IMG/VR virus record: IMGVR_UViG_3300031873_000363
Span: 1 to 25,030 of that record
Strand: one strand, 5' to 3'
DNA from: a virus
Length of the DNA: 25,030 nucleotides
Position 1 is the first letter of the stretch, and each line of letters begins with the position of its first letter. The position numbers and the translations under genes were made by a program. Shown here piece by piece: positions 4,569-10,886 of the stretch. Below the pieces are notes generated by a model. It was not told where the DNA came from, ran no database searches, and saw nothing but the letters and a program-made list of their open reading frames with translations.

Positions 4569-5278
4569 TCTATAAATTTTTTATATTTTTCTCTTATTCT
4601 TTTAACACAATCTGCTTGTATTATAGATTTTTCCTCTTGTGCGCCATGTATTTTACTTCCACTTTTATCTCCACGGATCCTAACATTATATAATCGTTCT
4701 GGAACCCTAACCATTACAGCGGTTGGTTTATTGGTCATTATATTTAATAATAAATCATAATCAACTGCTCGTTCCAGTGTTTCGTCATACCAAATTCCAT
4801 CCATTAATTCTTTTTTTATAAACGAACTACCATGTGGAATTCCTTTTTTACCCTCAAAACATTCCTTAAGACTTGGTATAAAACATTCAAAAAATCCACC
4901 TTCCTTTAGATATCCGATGCCATCATCGTTAACAATATTATAATCAGTAAATACTAAATCAGCGCCAGTATTTTGTGCCACCCTCAACTCTTTTTCTATA
5001 CACATTGGTTCTATCCAGTCATCACTATCAACCACAAGAAAATAGTCACCCTTAGCCAGTGTCATAGCAATGTTTCTCGCTTTTGCTATACCCGAATGTT
5101 TAATTTTTTTATACACATCAACATTCTCTTTAAATAAAACCGTATTATCTTCCGAACCATCATCAACCAAAATTATTTCATAATCCTTACATGTTTGTCT
5201 CTTAATACTTTCTAAACACTTAGAAAGATATTTTTCCGAATTATATGTGGCTATCAATACGCTTATTAATGGTTTCAT
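4565..5278 (-). CDS. Family 2 glycosyltransferase
   Basis: A 237-residue GT2 (GT-A fold) enzyme. The N-terminus PLISVLIATYNSEKYL and the run ILVDDGSEDNT at about 36-46 are the nucleotide-sugar binding core. KARNIAM at about 66-72 and the metal-binding VVDSDDW at about 82-88 complete the family signature. The frame opens at 5314, but ATG 5278 is preferred because the family core begins right after it and because the junction with the upstream gene is TAATATG, a stop/start arrangement repeated elsewhere in this operon. It overlaps the next gene by 4 bases. No membrane segment is visible, so it is probably cytoplasmic. Donor and acceptor are unknown. Confidence 0.9.
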   Translation of the reverse strand: MKPLISVLIATYNSEKYLSKCLESIKRQTCKDYEIILVDDGSEDNTVLFKENVDVYKKIKHSGIAKARNIAMTLAKGDYFLVVDSDDWIEPMCIEKELRVAQNTGADLVFTDYNIVNDDGIGYLKEGGFFECFIPSLKECFEGKKGIPHGSSFIKKELMDGIWYDETLERAVDYDLLLNIMTNKPTAVMVRVPERLYNVRIRGDKSGSKIHGAQEEKSIIQADCVKRIREKYKKFIE

Positions 5279-5279
5279 A

Positions 5280-5720
5280 TTATTTTCCAGACCGTGCCCT
5301 ATCCCACACATCATCCCAGAAATTATCCAGATGTCGGTCCCGTTTGTATTTATCTCTTATCTTATTTGCCCATGGTGGATCAGCAAATGGTCTCTGTCTT
5401 ATTCCTTCCATTGGGTCTTCAAATTCAACTTTTGGTTCTGGTTCTTTTTCTTTATTTTCTAAGGGCACACCTCTCTCTAGTGTTTGTTCTGGAACCGTCT
5501 CGTCATCTTCAGGAAAAGATTCCGGTGGCAATGATACCCCTAAATCAGGTATGGGTTCGGACACCTCAACGCCACAAAGTGTACACTTCATTCTTATTTC
5601 TAGAACACCGTTATGTGCTCCTAACATAGACTTATCACTACTAAATAGGTGATGTCCCGTAGAACACCCCTGGACTATACTGCTTTCTTTTACTATTGGT
5701 TTGTTTATGTCATTATCCAT
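5280..5720 (-). CDS. Hypothetical acidic/proline-rich protein with one CxxC
   Basis: I do not recognise the family. The frame opens at 5807, but that would overlap the upstream gene by about 95 bases; ATG 5720 leaves an 8-base overlap and is preferred, giving 146 residues beginning MDNDINKPIVKESS. The middle contains a CTLCG pair, followed by an acidic, proline-rich stretch (PEDDETVPEQ and EKEPEPKVEFEDP). The C-terminus is charged with several tryptophans (NFWDDVWDRAR). It lies between two glycosyltransferase genes and ends one base before the ATG of the next in a TAATATG junction. No function is assigned. Confidence 0.65.
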   Translation of the reverse strand: MDNDINKPIVKESSIVQGCSTGHHLFSSDKSMLGAHNGVLEIRMKCTLCGVEVSEPIPDLGVSLPPESFPEDDETVPEQTLERGVPLENKEKEPEPKVEFEDPMEGIRQRPFADPPWANKIRDKYKRDRHLDNFWDDVWDRARSGK

Positions 5721-8172
5721 TGAATATTTGTTCCCATTTTTTAGCACATTTTTCCCAATCGAATGTCTTTTTCGCACATCGCGTAAGACGTTTTCGCATT
5801 GGCTCAAACTGCCTAGGGTTTTTAAAATATTTGACTATCTCATTGACAAAAAATTGTTTCCGTTCTTCTTCTTGGACACCGTAATCTCGACCCGATGCCA
5901 CGTCTACAGTCCAATTATCATATGTCTTGTCTGAATGACTAATAATACCCTCTTTTAAGAATTCTCCCTGAGCAAAGGCATCTGTAGTCACCGGGATTAC
6001 GCCGGCAAGTATGGCCTTCGTTCCCGAGATAAAGCCGATCTCGAAAAATTCACTTGGATATAACATAAGTCCAGATTCTAGATATTGGTCAACAATGGCA
6101 TCCTGAGAAATCATATCTCCACTCTCTTTCTCCATTATACCACATTTTTTTAATTTTTCCATCTTTTCTACTGCTCTCCTCTTCCATTCTATCATCTTTT
6201 CATCATTTGCAAACTCACCATCCCAAACTCTAAACCCATAGTTCCATCTAAACTTTAATTTTGGCTTCAAGTCATCTGACAACGCATCATAAACACGTTC
6301 TATAATTTCCATATTGGTCAGAAGACTTCTGTCCGGAGAAGAGGTATTAATAATTTTATATGGATTTCTTTTTACTACAATTGCCCTTTCTTCGAACTTG
6401 CCAATATCTAGTCCGTGGGGTATAATCATAACCTTTTCATCCGGGATGTTCGAACAGTAATCTCTGTGTGCCCTACTCTTAAACATGACCTTGGTCACCC
6501 TTGCAATACGGTCTGGAGTAAATTCTTGCGGCGGGATAACGTCATGCATATCTACAAGAATAATGTCGGCATTGATATCATAATCTAGAGGTTTGGGATG
6601 TCTCCAAAGAATAACTACATCTTGTTTATCACGATAATTCCAGGCAGCAAATGGAAGCCATTTAACTCCATCGATAATCTTTTCATTAGTGCCAATATTG
6701 GCGTATATTTCTACATTCCATCCATCAACTGCCCATCTCTTTGCTAATTGAATAATCGCTTCTTCTGAACCACCAACCCCTTTTGTTTTAAAGGTATCTG
6801 CGTCCCATTCATTTTCAGTATATGAACAATAGATAGCCACGTCCTTACCAGACGAGGTTTGTTTTACAAAATGTCTGTTGCGCAGATTAACAATTGCAGG
6901 ATAATACTTCATATCCGGTGGAACAGAATCTAATAATTTTTTAAGTTCCTTTCTGTCAGTTATAACCTGCGCCTGTTTATATACCTTATTAGCGGCATCA
7001 AACTTCCTAACTTCAGGGGCAAGACTTTTGATAAGTCTCTTTACCCTTTTTGAGTCAGGATATACTTTAAGTGCCATCTTTAGGTTTTTAACTGCATCCT
7101 TGGGTCTTAAAAGTTTTAGATAGGTTTCGGCCAACAACATCCTTGGAAGATAGTCATATTCCCTAGGATTCCAGGCTATCTTTTCATCGGTAGATATCTT
7201 TTTGGTAAATCCATCTTCTAACATCTCTTTGGCAGCCCTGAACTTTCCCATTTTCATATAAATGTTTCCCAAACCAAAGTATGAATCTGGATACCACGGT
7301 CTTAATGCTAATGCCTCTAATTCTGATTGTAACGCCCGGGCATAATCACCTGTATTCGCATAAGCCACGGCAAGTCGGTGCCACGCAGTAAATCGTTCCT
7401 CTTCGGAATTTGACATTCCAAGAAAATCAAGATATAATGGGATTGTATCATCAAATTTTCCTTCACTTAAATAACAATTAGCTAGGTTCCAGTAAATTCT
7501 AGGATCATTAGGATGTTTCTTAAATGCTGTTTCAGATATCTCAGTATTTCTTGCCAAGGCCCTATCTAATCTAGCGCTATCAGTTAAATGAATCACAACC
7601 ATATCTTTGTTAAGATCGGTCATAATCTGACGTTGAGGAGTAAAATCTTCATGAAGTTCTGCGTCATTCCATCTCACGCATCCGTCGTTTTTTAGAACAC
7701 GACTCTTGGTATGTTCTGTATCTAACTTCCCATATTCATCATAATGGTAATTATATACCAGATTCAGAACGTCTATTGCCTCTTCCTTCATTCTGACAGT
7801 AAGATCTCTTAAAAGTTGTGGATTTTTCCATACGTCATCGGAATCGGTCCAAACAATATAATCAAAATCTTTCGAGACTTGAGCAAAGTTAAAATTCCTT
7901 GCATCAGCAAAGTTTTTATTCCATTCAAAATAAGACACAATAGCCCCATATTTTTTGGCGATTTCCTCACATTTTTCATTATTCCCAGTAATTGTCAAAA
8001 AAATGGAATCCACATATTTTGCCAACCCCCCCGTTTTCTTAAGGTCAATGTTCTTATGTTCTTCTAGAAGTTGGGACTTATTTACGACACCGCCAAGACA
8101 TCTATCTAAAAGACGCGCCTCTTCATCGGTAGGAGTCACTATCATACAAAGTGCTATTTTAGGTTTGCTCAT
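5713..8172 (-). CDS. GT2 - TPR - GT4 fusion glycosyltransferase
   Basis: An 819-residue protein from ATG 8172; the frame opens at 8196, but the start after TAATATG fits the family start MSKPKIALCMIV. Residues 5-190 are a GT2 (SunS-like or TPR-associated) domain with NFADARNF at 87-94 and the metal site WTDSDD at 108-113. Residues about 205-385 contain several tetratricopeptide repeats, for example WNLANCYLSEGKFDDTIPLY and FGLGNIYMKMGKFRAAKEML. Residues about 443-819 form a GT4-like domain with GVGGSEEAI at 465-473, IPHGLDI near 584-590 and FFEIGFISGTKAILAGVIPV near 709-728. TPR-linked glycosyltransferases often glycosylate proteins, so a capsid or other virion protein is a possible acceptor. 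That is inference. Confidence 0.87.
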   Translation of the reverse strand: MSKPKIALCMIVTPTDEEARLLDRCLGGVVNKSQLLEEHKNIDLKKTGGLAKYVDSIFLTITGNNEKCEEIAKKYGAIVSYFEWNKNFADARNFNFAQVSKDFDYIVWTDSDDVWKNPQLLRDLTVRMKEEAIDVLNLVYNYHYDEYGKLDTEHTKSRVLKNDGCVRWNDAELHEDFTPQRQIMTDLNKDMVVIHLTDSARLDRALARNTEISETAFKKHPNDPRIYWNLANCYLSEGKFDDTIPLYLDFLGMSNSEEERFTAWHRLAVAYANTGDYARALQSELEALALRPWYPDSYFGLGNIYMKMGKFRAAKEMLEDGFTKKISTDEKIAWNPREYDYLPRMLLAETYLKLLRPKDAVKNLKMALKVYPDSKRVKRLIKSLAPEVRKFDAANKVYKQAQVITDRKELKKLLDSVPPDMKYYPAIVNLRNRHFVKQTSSGKDVAIYCSYTENEWDADTFKTKGVGGSEEAIIQLAKRWAVDGWNVEIYANIGTNEKIIDGVKWLPFAAWNYRDKQDVVILWRHPKPLDYDINADIILVDMHDVIPPQEFTPDRIARVTKVMFKSRAHRDYCSNIPDEKVMIIPHGLDIGKFEERAIVVKRNPYKIINTSSPDRSLLTNMEIIERVYDALSDDLKPKLKFRWNYGFRVWDGEFANDEKMIEWKRRAVEKMEKLKKCGIMEKESGDMISQDAIVDQYLESGLMLYPSEFFEIGFISGTKAILAGVIPVTTDAFAQGEFLKEGIISHSDKTYDNWTVDVASGRDYGVQEEERKQFFVNEIVKYFKNPRQFEPMRKRLTRCAKKTFDWEKCAKKWEQIFNG

Positions 8173-8594: not shown

Positions 8595-8611
8595 TCAGTT
8601 AGTTGCCTTAA
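8595..8611 (-). CDS. Major capsid protein, exon 3 (last five codons and stop)
   Basis: Seventeen bases complete the split phenylalanine codon and encode K-A-T-N followed by TGA. The exon was placed by two independent signs: its first five bases TTAAG are complementary to CTTAA in the guide sequence of the second intron (P10), and joining it to exon 2 keeps the reading frame and ends 7 bases before the next gene. Because it is so short, protein similarity alone could not locate it. Confidence 0.65.
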
Positions 8612-9028
8612 CTATTTTATATTATGGGGACAAACGCCACCATTTCTAGCCCTACCAAGATTGCAGTTGTAACATTGGACTTGATATGTATTTGGAAATC
8701 CTAGTTTTATTATTTTACGGTATGTCTGGGTACTATTTCCTCCACTATTTCTTTCCTTATGGCCATCATTGTTAACATGGTCAATGGTCAAAAATCCTTC
8801 ATTAGTTTCAATACATCCTTTACAATTACATTGTCTACCATAATAATCAAAAACGGTCTTTTTAAGAGTCGCCCTATAATCACGTAATCTTTGTGCATTG
8901 TCTCTATACCATTTATCTTTATATTTTTTATAATATTTTCCATTTTTTTCAAGCCATTTATGATTATTCTCTTTATACCTATCTTTATTTAAAAGATAGT
9001 GCTGGTGTTTATACTCTTTCCTATCCAT
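8612..9028 (-). CDS. HNH homing endonuclease encoded in intron 2
   Basis: A 138-residue basic protein. The first 55 residues are lysine- and tyrosine-rich and may bind DNA. An HNH nuclease region follows, with metal-binding or structural cysteines in CNCKGC, the catalytic-type segment LTIDHVNNDGH (histidine in the first H position), a conserved YRKIIKLGFP segment and the terminal pair CYNCNLGRARNGGVCPHN. This resembles free-standing and intron-borne phage HNH enzymes that cut intron-less alleles. The gene starts downstream of the intron core, and its TAG stop supplies the terminal intron G. No strong promoter was found directly upstream; it may be translated from the capsid transcript. Confidence 0.88.
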   Translation of the reverse strand: MDRKEYKHQHYLLNKDRYKENNHKWLEKNGKYYKKYKDKWYRDNAQRLRDYRATLKKTVFDYYGRQCNCKGCIETNEGFLTIDHVNNDGHKERNSGGNSTQTYRKIIKLGFPNTYQVQCYNCNLGRARNGGVCPHNIK

Positions 9029-9359
9029 TAATTGTTTTCAATGTATACTCAGCAAAACCACATTGAATAGTAATGCCGAGTAAACAATTAATTAAGTTAA
9101 TTATTCTACTTCATTATTGACGTTAGTCAATATCAACAATTTTGTTACTACCATTTCTGGCGGTTATACATTTCTGTATAACTCTATATATCGCTATATA
9201 GTTCGGACTATCCCATTATCCTATTAGGATATGCCTATTATAGTCTCTGAACGTCTCCTTGCGGATTTCGCTGCGGATTGTCTCACTTGAGAGTTTCCCG
9301 CAATTTCAGGCATTTGCTATATAACCTCTCGGTTATATGGGCCTTAAGTTATAAACTAA
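8612..9359 (-). ncRNA. Group I intron 2 in the capsid gene, with HNH ORF
   Basis: A 748-base intervening sequence. P1: exon GGCT plus intron TTA pairs with TAAGGCC at about 9340-9346, placing a U.G pair at the splice site after 9360. P2 is a perfect hairpin at 9319-9338 (ATATAACC, loop GAGA). P3 is ATGCCT (9308-9313) with AGGCAT (9231-9236). P7 is GACTA within TTCAGAGACTA (about 9241-9251) with TAGTC in TAGTCC (9205-9210). P8 is the hairpin TATCCT-AAT-AGGATA (about 9217-9231). P9-like hairpins follow. P10 is 5-bp CTTAA/TTAAG. The intron ends in G at 8612, which is also the last base of the HNH stop codon. The endonuclease gene lies after the core. Confidence 0.85.
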
Positions 9360-9840
9360 AGCCATTGTGATACCAGTTGCTGTTTCTGTTCTTAACCTCA
9401 AGGGTCAAGTCACCAACAACCGCTCTAAAGTCGTAGTCTCCAGCCCTTTGCAGGGTTGTGTCAACAAACGGTCTTCGAAGATATGCTATCTTCAACTTCT
9501 CAGGACGAACTGCCAATACTTTACCAATTAGAGACGTAGAATCACCTGATTGCTGCACGTATCTGTGATAATGTATGGCTAACCTTCCAAATGATGTGCT
9601 ATATACGTCAATCGTATTAAGGATTGTCGTAGCGTCTACGGTCACCAGGGTATTAGACTTGCTGGTAAACTCATCGATCGCATTTCGTAAGAACGAACCT
9701 ACGAAAAGATCAGTCGCCACATCACCATTTGAGTTATCCATGTTGTCCTTCATTATTCCGTTAAGAATTGAAGTTGAGAACACGGTTCCTGAAGCGTGAG
9801 CGGAAAAGTTAGTTGAGCGAGAAATCGCTTCTAAAATACC
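9360..9840 (-). CDS. Major capsid protein, exon 2 (C-terminal half)
   Basis: This exon encodes residues 144-303 and the first base of codon 304. It begins GILEAISRSTNFSAH, continues through SGTVFSTSILNGIMKDN, DLFVGSFLRNAIDEF and AVRPEKLKIAYLRRPFVDT, and ends in LTLEVKNRNSNWYHNG. These are characteristic of the C-terminal half of SU10-like (DUF5309) major capsid proteins. The GTG at 9783 is not a real start: the same frame is open upstream and reads as conserved capsid sequence back to the splice point. If intron 2 is not removed, the frame adds only F-S-L and stops at 9349, so an almost normal C-terminus would still be made. Confidence 0.88.
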
Positions 9841-9963
9841 CGTTAATGGACTTTGTCTTCATCCTCTTTCGAAGAGCATCCTGTAAAGTCTCTACACTTG
9901 CCCGAGACAACCTTTTAAGGTCCTTGTCTCTGCTAGCACGGCGTCCCTGGGAGGTTCACCGTT

Positions 9964-10407
9964 TTAGGGATGTTTTAGATGAGCAGTTTTTTTAGAATGC
10001 GAATTTGTTAGAATTGCTTGAGAATTCGTTTTTAAACGATGACAGTTAGGACAATATGTTTTCATATTATCTATATCAGTTATTTTTAATGGATTTATCT
10101 TTCTTGGTTCAATATGGTCAACTTCCATGATTCTTTCATCGTGGAATAGACACATATTTTCTGACAAATGCCACCAACAATTTTCCGTACACCGGCATGT
10201 ATAATTATCTCTTTCAAGAACAATTTTTTTCCAATATGTGGCAGATATACCGCCTTTCCATCTTGGATGATTTTTCCCAGATATTTCGCCCTTTTTAAAG
10301 GAACTCTTAGGTAGTGGGCGATTTTTAATATAACAATTCCAACACGTCTTAGCTTTGTGTTTTTTTATTATGCCCCCACAATTAGGACATGGTTTCGGAG
10401 TGGCCAT
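9964..10407 (-). CDS. HNH homing endonuclease encoded in intron 1
   Basis: A 147-residue protein. A zinc ribbon with CPNCGG and CWNC occupies residues 7-25. GEISGKNHPRWKGGIS resembles a NUMOD3-type DNA-binding motif. The HNH region contains RDNYTCRC, the catalytic-type EVDHIEPRKINPL, the central N in DIDNMKTYCPNCH and the closing CPNCHRLKT. It would cleave capsid genes lacking the intron and spread the intron by homing (family knowledge). Its ATG is 5 bases downstream of a strong TATAAT, so the message is probably leaderless. The codons for TAHLK near the C-terminus are the same bases as the ribozyme guide sequence. Confidence 0.9.
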   Translation of the reverse strand: MATPKPCPNCGGIIKKHKAKTCWNCYIKNRPLPKSSFKKGEISGKNHPRWKGGISATYWKKIVLERDNYTCRCTENCWWHLSENMCLFHDERIMEVDHIEPRKINPLKITDIDNMKTYCPNCHRLKTNSQAILTNSHSKKTAHLKHP

Positions 10408-10412
10408 ACTTC

Positions 10413-10441
10413 ATTATACCATAAATGAAGAAGTTTTTCAA
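10413..10441 (-). promoter_or_regulatory. Sigma-70-type promoter inside intron 1
   Basis: TTGAAA (10436-10441), a 17-base spacer ending in TGG and TATAAT (10413-10418) on the minus strand. The -10 is 5 bases before the HNH ATG at 10407, so transcription would begin at or next to the start codon. It has the same form as the promoters at 12231, 15393, 18131 and 18259. Confidence 0.75.
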
Positions 10442-10457
10442 TACCACTTCGTAGTTT

Positions 10458-10886
10458 ACTCATCTTTGGAACGGTACCGGATTGTCCAGAAACAAGGGTT
10501 GAACGAACCAAGTCAAACTCGGCTGCATTTCCCCATTCTGCTAATGCTTTGGTTGTCTGTCTAGCCAACTCATCTTCACCATAATAGTGCTGAACAAGTT
10601 GCTGCGTCCTGTCTACCTTGAAAGGAATAGCAATTTTTTCTACAAGGTTCGTTACTAACGTAGTTGTAGATCTTGCAAGATTGGTAAAATCTTCGGCTTC
10701 TGCAACCGCTTGAGATGCCGCCGTTCTTAGCGTATCTGTTAGTGTTGAATGAACGGTGCTAATTGCAACGTTCTTACCAAGATTTGAAAGGAACCAATCC
10801 TCTCGGGCAGTCAGAATTTCAACCAAACCCAGGACATCCTGTTTTATAGCTGTATCACCGTAACTTCTTAAAATTTCATCGGCCAC
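10458..10886 (-). CDS. Major capsid protein, SU10-like (DUF5309), exon 1
   Basis: This exon encodes residues 1-143 of a 308-residue capsid protein made from three exons (10886-10458, 9840-9360, 8611-8595; 927 bases in all, in frame). Family features include the early segment LVEILTAREDWFLSNLGKN (about 21-39), STVHSTLTDTL, AIPFKVDRTQQ (about 86-96) and EWGNAAEFDLVRSTLVSG (about 117-134), ending in GTVPKMS. The product forms the icosahedral shell. Unspliced, the frame reads 29 unrelated residues into intron 1 and stops at 10368. The gene follows the putative scaffold gene, the usual head-module order. The splice sites are inferred from reading frame and RNA pairing and have not been tested. Confidence 0.9.

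Follow-up and report, generated by a model that had tools for sequence, protein, structure and literature searches.

Two group I introns in one phage major-capsid gene, the first with an HNH gene whose last codons are also the splice-site guide

How can one capsid protein be made from a gene whose reading frame is interrupted twice? The question is raised by a minus-strand major-capsid gene of the SU10/DUF5309 family in a 25,030-nt stretch of viral DNA (IMG/VR record IMGVR_UViG_3300031873_000363; hereafter, the window). The gene contains two group I introns, as the original prediction had proposed, with ribozyme cores in both gaps (Table 1). Capsid genes are among the most highly expressed genes of a phage, so an intron there that depends on splicing tests how cheap such parasites are. 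Very probably, the gene is transcribed as a single precursor from which both ribozymes would excise themselves, giving a capsid protein of 307 residues; intron 1 would be a mobile HNH intron, intron 2 a gene-less one, and the second HNH gene a separate element.

Table 1. Coordinates in the window of the capsid gene, its introns and the neighboring elements.
Feature	Coordinates	Strand	Size	Description
Capsid exon 1	10458–10886	−		GTG start, residues 1–143; Pfam SU10_MCP match of the joined protein
Group I intron 1	9841–10457	−	617 nt	HNH gene in P1 loop; homologues at the same site and covariation
Sigma-70-like promoter TTGAAA-17-TATAAT (putative)	10413–10441	−		Ahead of HNH gene 1; 11/12 positions, extended −10; consensus match only
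HNH endonuclease gene 1	9964–10407	−	147 aa	PF01844, E 9.3e-9; 3' end encodes the internal guide sequence and the 5' strand of P3
Internal guide sequence GCUCAUC	9978–9984	−		Forms P1 with GAUGAGU of the 5' exon; splice-site pair U.G
Intron 1 catalytic core P3-P4-P6-P7-P8	9849–9972	−		Alignment of seven introns
Capsid exon 2	9360–9840	−		Residues 144–303 and first base of codon 304
Group I intron 2	9137–9359	−	223 nt	No ORF; RF00028 match, 3' end homologous to the L016 intron
Capsid exon 3	9123–9136	−		TTGATATTGACTAA; ends GFDID-stop (L002 C-terminus GFDKD-stop)
Capsid 3'UTR RNA element	9027–9092	−		Helices A-B-C-B'-C'-A'; conserved in relatives; no Rfam match
HNH-like endonuclease gene 2	8612–9028	−	138 aa	Free-standing; follows the capsid 3'UTR element

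The exons read as a single capsid protein. Joining 10886–10458 to 9840–9360 gives one SU10-like frame, as proposed, and the joined protein matches the Pfam SU10_MCP profile (PF17236) over residues 12–296 with an E-value of 1.5e-44 (153.1 bits against a cut-off of 24.1). Its nearest relatives, L002 (88% identity) and L003 (76%), are both intronless. Intronless relatives confirm junction 1 to the base: the window reads AAGATGAGT at the end of exon 1 and GGTATTTTAGAAGCG at the start of exon 2, and L002 reads AAGATGAGTGGTATATTGGAAGCG at the same place (AAGATGAGT followed directly by GGTAT). The codon preceding this junction is variable and the one following it is an invariant glycine. The predicted continuity was borne out at junction 1; junction 2 had to be moved to 9360/9136, which shortens the predicted product from 308 to 307 residues.

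The capsid loci came from a scan of viral contigs (21 loci) and a profile scan (80 listed, partly from the same contigs). The gene is uninterrupted in 93 of the 107 loci examined, a proportion that overstates the intact share because the profile scan retains the best full-length matches. Two contigs have unusual capsid loci. L020 has two partial capsid matches that overlap and lie in different frames (4708–5115 and 5537–6397, covering residues 1–135 and 30–304), either a partial duplication or an odd insertion. L022 ends at position 6426, exactly on the boundary between exon 1 and intron 1, perhaps through an assembly break at the shared intron.

Intron 2 is recognized directly by the Rfam group I model: RF00028 aligns over its full length (model positions 1–253) to 9369–9184 with 88.6 bits (E 1.1e-21), above the gathering threshold. 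The 5' splice site has the expected U.G pair (GGCU/GGCC), and blastn finds kin in T4 nrdD and in Staphylococcus phage introns. Among viral contigs, the core pattern of intron 2 recurred in one terminase intron (L058).

The 3' splice site of intron 2 is placed at 9137/9136 by three lines of evidence: a single homologous intron, the C-terminus, which is short and variable, and an element in the 3'UTR. L016 and L017 have an intron at capsid residue 280, and the continuity of the protein (DYD/NRAVVG) fixes its exons; the L016 intron ends in ...GTAACAAATTTG, and the window core runs on likewise to ...GTAACAAAATTG. Joining 9360 to 9136 gives the C-terminus ...HNGFDID-stop, corresponding to ...FAGFDKD-stop in L002, and a conserved RNA element of the capsid 3'UTR follows 30 nt later. 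The residue-280 intron (L016 5358–6121, L017 6555–7318) represents a further insertion site in this capsid family; its core encloses an HNH-like gene, and Rfam at the gathering threshold does not detect it.

The original prediction had instead run intron 2 from 9359 to 8612, so that an HNH gene separated P9 from the 3' splice site and the last exon was 8611–8595 (...KATN-stop). Such an intron would also end in G, and HNH genes commonly sit inside group I introns, as one relative of this HNH gene does. P10 can be formed at either site (UUAA/UUGA at 9137; 5 bp, CUUAA/UUAAG, at 8612) and does not decide between them. We nevertheless regard the longer intron as improbable: the core can be followed to an ordinary intron end at 9137, splicing there yields the C-terminus of the relatives, a 3'UTR element found in most relatives would become intronic, and the sequence from 8611 onward resembles what immediately precedes the next gene in L002. 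The candidate exon at 8611–8595 was therefore replaced by 9136–9123. The predicted terminal G is present in both introns, for intron 2 at 9137 rather than at 8612, and of the two HNH genes assigned to introns only the first (10407–9964) lies in one; the second (9028–8612) is outside intron 2, whose 223 nt contain no endonuclease gene.

With the 3' site at 9137, intron 2 would be a small intron of the T4/Staphylococcus-phage type in the last capsid codons. Unspliced, it would give a capsid ending in ...NGFSL-stop, resembling the GFSLV-stop end of L003, so it may cost little even if poorly spliced; the capsid end would be of a normal kind with or without splicing (GFDID or GFSL, against GFDKD and GFSLV in relatives).

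On the original map a conserved RNA element would have passed for filler within intron 2; the corrected map brings it to light. In relatives the layout A-B-C-B'-C'-A' occupies ~60–70 nt directly 3' of the capsid stop codon, with the geometry kept and the sequence unrelated. Helix A has 4–14 bp (mostly 6–12), B 7–14 bp and C 7–12 bp, and B' and C' are separated by 0–2 nt. Carriers include the window, L002, L003, L063, L088, L098, L123 and others. Because the helices were picked by requiring pairing, the controls rather than the pair counts carry this claim. Scanning 352 kb on both strands located 32 sites, of which 30 lie at most 120 nt after a capsid stop codon, and a scan of 140 kb of shuffled sequence gave none; scores of at least 50 were reached in 48 of 75 distinct 3'UTRs of relatives but in none of 3000 dinucleotide shuffles, the highest of which scored 31.5. 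One of the two sites away from a capsid stop is a second copy in L085 (3883–3939), 468 nt past the capsid match.

Rfam gave no match to the element in the window or in nine relatives, and we found no description of it in open-licence papers. The isolated SU10-type phages LUZ24, pCB2047-A, EBPR podovirus 2 and CRP-7 have ordinary hairpins or terminators in its place; since these distant isolates of the same capsid type have plain hairpins or terminators there, our best guess is that it acts at the 3' end of the mRNA. An ordinary H-type pseudoknot would be hard to build with no linker between B' and C', which points to an unusual interlocked fold or to two alternative hairpins. With overlapping helices B and C inside A, fixed spacing, near-zero linkers and the same position in most relatives, the element probably represents an undescribed structured-RNA family that would act on the capsid mRNA, by protecting its 3' end, through termination or as a two-state switch.

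HNH gene 2 is best read as free-standing, since intron 2 ends upstream of it and it lies 3' of both the capsid stop codon and the conserved element. Its start coincides with the 3' edge of the element, and it ends 24 bases before the next gene (8587–8174); in L002 the element directly adjoins the counterpart of that gene. HNH gene 2 would accordingly be a separate homing-type gene placed between the two. Its putative assignment to the HNH class comes from a DH...N...CYNCN motif identified by eye; it has no Pfam match, and its one PHROG match, a weak one, is to an endolysin family. Relatives occur in 17 viral contigs, one of them inside an RF00028 intron, and when these relatives were checked for intronic copies at the same capsid position, none lay in a capsid gene. 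Sulfitobacter phage pCB2047-A (L142) has an annotated HNH gene (1767–2318) right behind its capsid gene, in the same position.

Intron 1 required a different approach. Searched against Rfam on its own down to an E-value of 10, it gave only chance matches and did not reach the RF00028 gathering threshold, so that the RF00028 search suggested for both gaps succeeded in intron 2 alone. As a formal test the miss counts against intron 1, although it is understandable for a model that the ORF in the P1 loop splits; the limit lies in the model, and the score is no chemical hallmark of group I introns. We used the 3' core pattern of intron 1 as a scan query and recovered 18 loci: HNH inserts in SU10-like capsid genes account for six of them, and the remainder mostly resemble phage tRNA introns with the same core. 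One such tRNA-intron relative scored 44.9 bits (E 2.9e-8) against RF00028, whose curated threshold is 50. Annotated phage records contained no match to the core.

The HNH introns of six other phages (L029, L030/L021, L034, L036, L038 and L040) interrupt the capsid gene at exactly the same base and codon as intron 1, and in all six the exons join to PxM[SR]GI. The terminal intron base is G in 7 of 7 of these site-143 introns, the window included. We aligned the seven sequences with the HNH gene left out and evaluated a structure comprising P1, P3, P4, P6, P7, P8 and P10, in which 97.7% of cells are paired (36–44% in slid controls). Two-sided changes occur at 15 pairs, against 6.2 ± 1.5 in shuffles, with none of 500 shuffles reaching as high. 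Compensatory changes support P1, P3, P4, P6 and P8; in P3 they affect four of the five pairs (CAUCC/GGAUG in the window, UCCCG/CGGGA in L030). P7 belonged to the pattern used for the scan; its lack of variation therefore agrees with the fold and is no independent evidence. P10 in the window has one mismatch. The homologues at the same site and the covariation establish intron 1 as real despite the Rfam miss.

The P1 pairing identifies the guide. The exon and guide strands covary (AUGCGU/GCGCAU in L040, AAUGAGU/GCUCAUU in L036), and the predicted U.G is seen at this 5' splice site as well as at that of intron 2. A search by eye for the guide strand in the first 50 nt of intron 1 gave no pairing that was kept across homologues; the conserved partner of the 5' exon lies in the distal end of the HNH gene. 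HNH gene 1 therefore fills the P1 loop, and the guide strand is ~470 nt from the splice site with which it pairs. The HNH frame runs through the guide and the 5' strand of P3 in five of the seven homologous introns, ending ...TAHLK.., and in the window the HNH motif is intact. The putative promoter ahead of HNH gene 1 is the best match in the region, and four homologous introns have promoter-like matches in the same place. Intron 1 thus joins two mobility parts in one stretch, with the last codons of the endonuclease as splice-site guide; since the end of the endonuclease gene encodes the guide, both must match the same capsid codon.

Read through without splicing, intron 1 ends translation after 172 residues, so it must splice for a capsid to be made. 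The sequences show gene structure, homology, covariation and a scattered distribution; splicing, cleavage and homing are inferred. The insert could alternatively be a free-standing HNH gene without a ribozyme, the capsid being made as two chains; the absence of an Rfam match would agree with this, as would the split-capsid annotation that exists in databases. The covariation in P1, P3, P4, P6 and P8 makes this very unlikely, as does a core shared with phage tRNA introns, where a working tRNA needs splicing. That the window is a single metagenomic contig might suggest a broken pseudogene or an assembly chimera with unspliced gaps, a reading scarcely credible for intact, in-frame exons with intact, covarying ribozyme cores and with the same insertion at the same base in six independent contigs.

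A precursor from which both introns are spliced remains the preferred reading, and the distribution of intron 1 fits a mobile element. In a tree of 77 capsid proteins that includes the seven site-143 carriers, the window is sister to the intronless L059 (the L002 contig; support 99/96), L029 groups with the intronless L086 (99/78), and L038 and L040 fall in other clades. Such scatter would be expected if a mobile intron had been gained or lost repeatedly. Intronless capsid alleles exist, and intron 1 probably spread between phages through cleavage of such alleles by the HNH enzyme at the PKM-GI codons, followed by repair. A comparison with L002 gave no signal of exon co-conversion, identity being about 76% throughout.

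Group I introns in capsid genes, even two per gene, are already known, and the suggestion that double capsid insertions are uncommon was overstated. The capsid gene of the marine uncultured phage Deep1-GF2-KM23-C739 (KT997847) contains a pair of RF00028 introns (78 and 76.9 bits), but this phage is T7-like (Autographiviridae), and its introns are ORF-less and at other sites. In this record (L145) the introns lie at 751–931 and 1460–1640, and the capsid is deposited as two separate proteins. Published capsid-gene introns include those of lactococcal phage Tuc2009 and mycobacteriophage LittleE (PMC3706429). The LittleE intron is likewise presumed mobile, and its splicing was shown by RT-PCR; it differs in being a single intron, with the endonuclease ORF on the opposite strand, in another capsid family. 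Intron 2 of the window belongs with the T4-like and Staphylococcus phage introns (RF00028), matching T4 nrdD at 81% identity over ~50 nt, but lies in an SU10-type capsid gene and has no ORF. Intron 1 shares its P3–P8 core with phage tRNA introns (L023, L032 and others; core GGGCAAGUGUAGAGACU...AAAGUCC) and differs from them in being in a protein gene, with no P2 seen and an HNH gene in the P1 loop. A homing endonuclease gene occupies the P1 loop of nuclear S1389 introns also (PMC8395846), where the enzyme is of the His-Cys type and the host gene encodes rRNA, and ORFs overlapping the ribozyme core have been reviewed (PMC3984707). New here is a P1-loop HNH gene in an intron of a phage protein gene, with its last codons forming the guide strand, that recurs at one capsid codon in seven phages.
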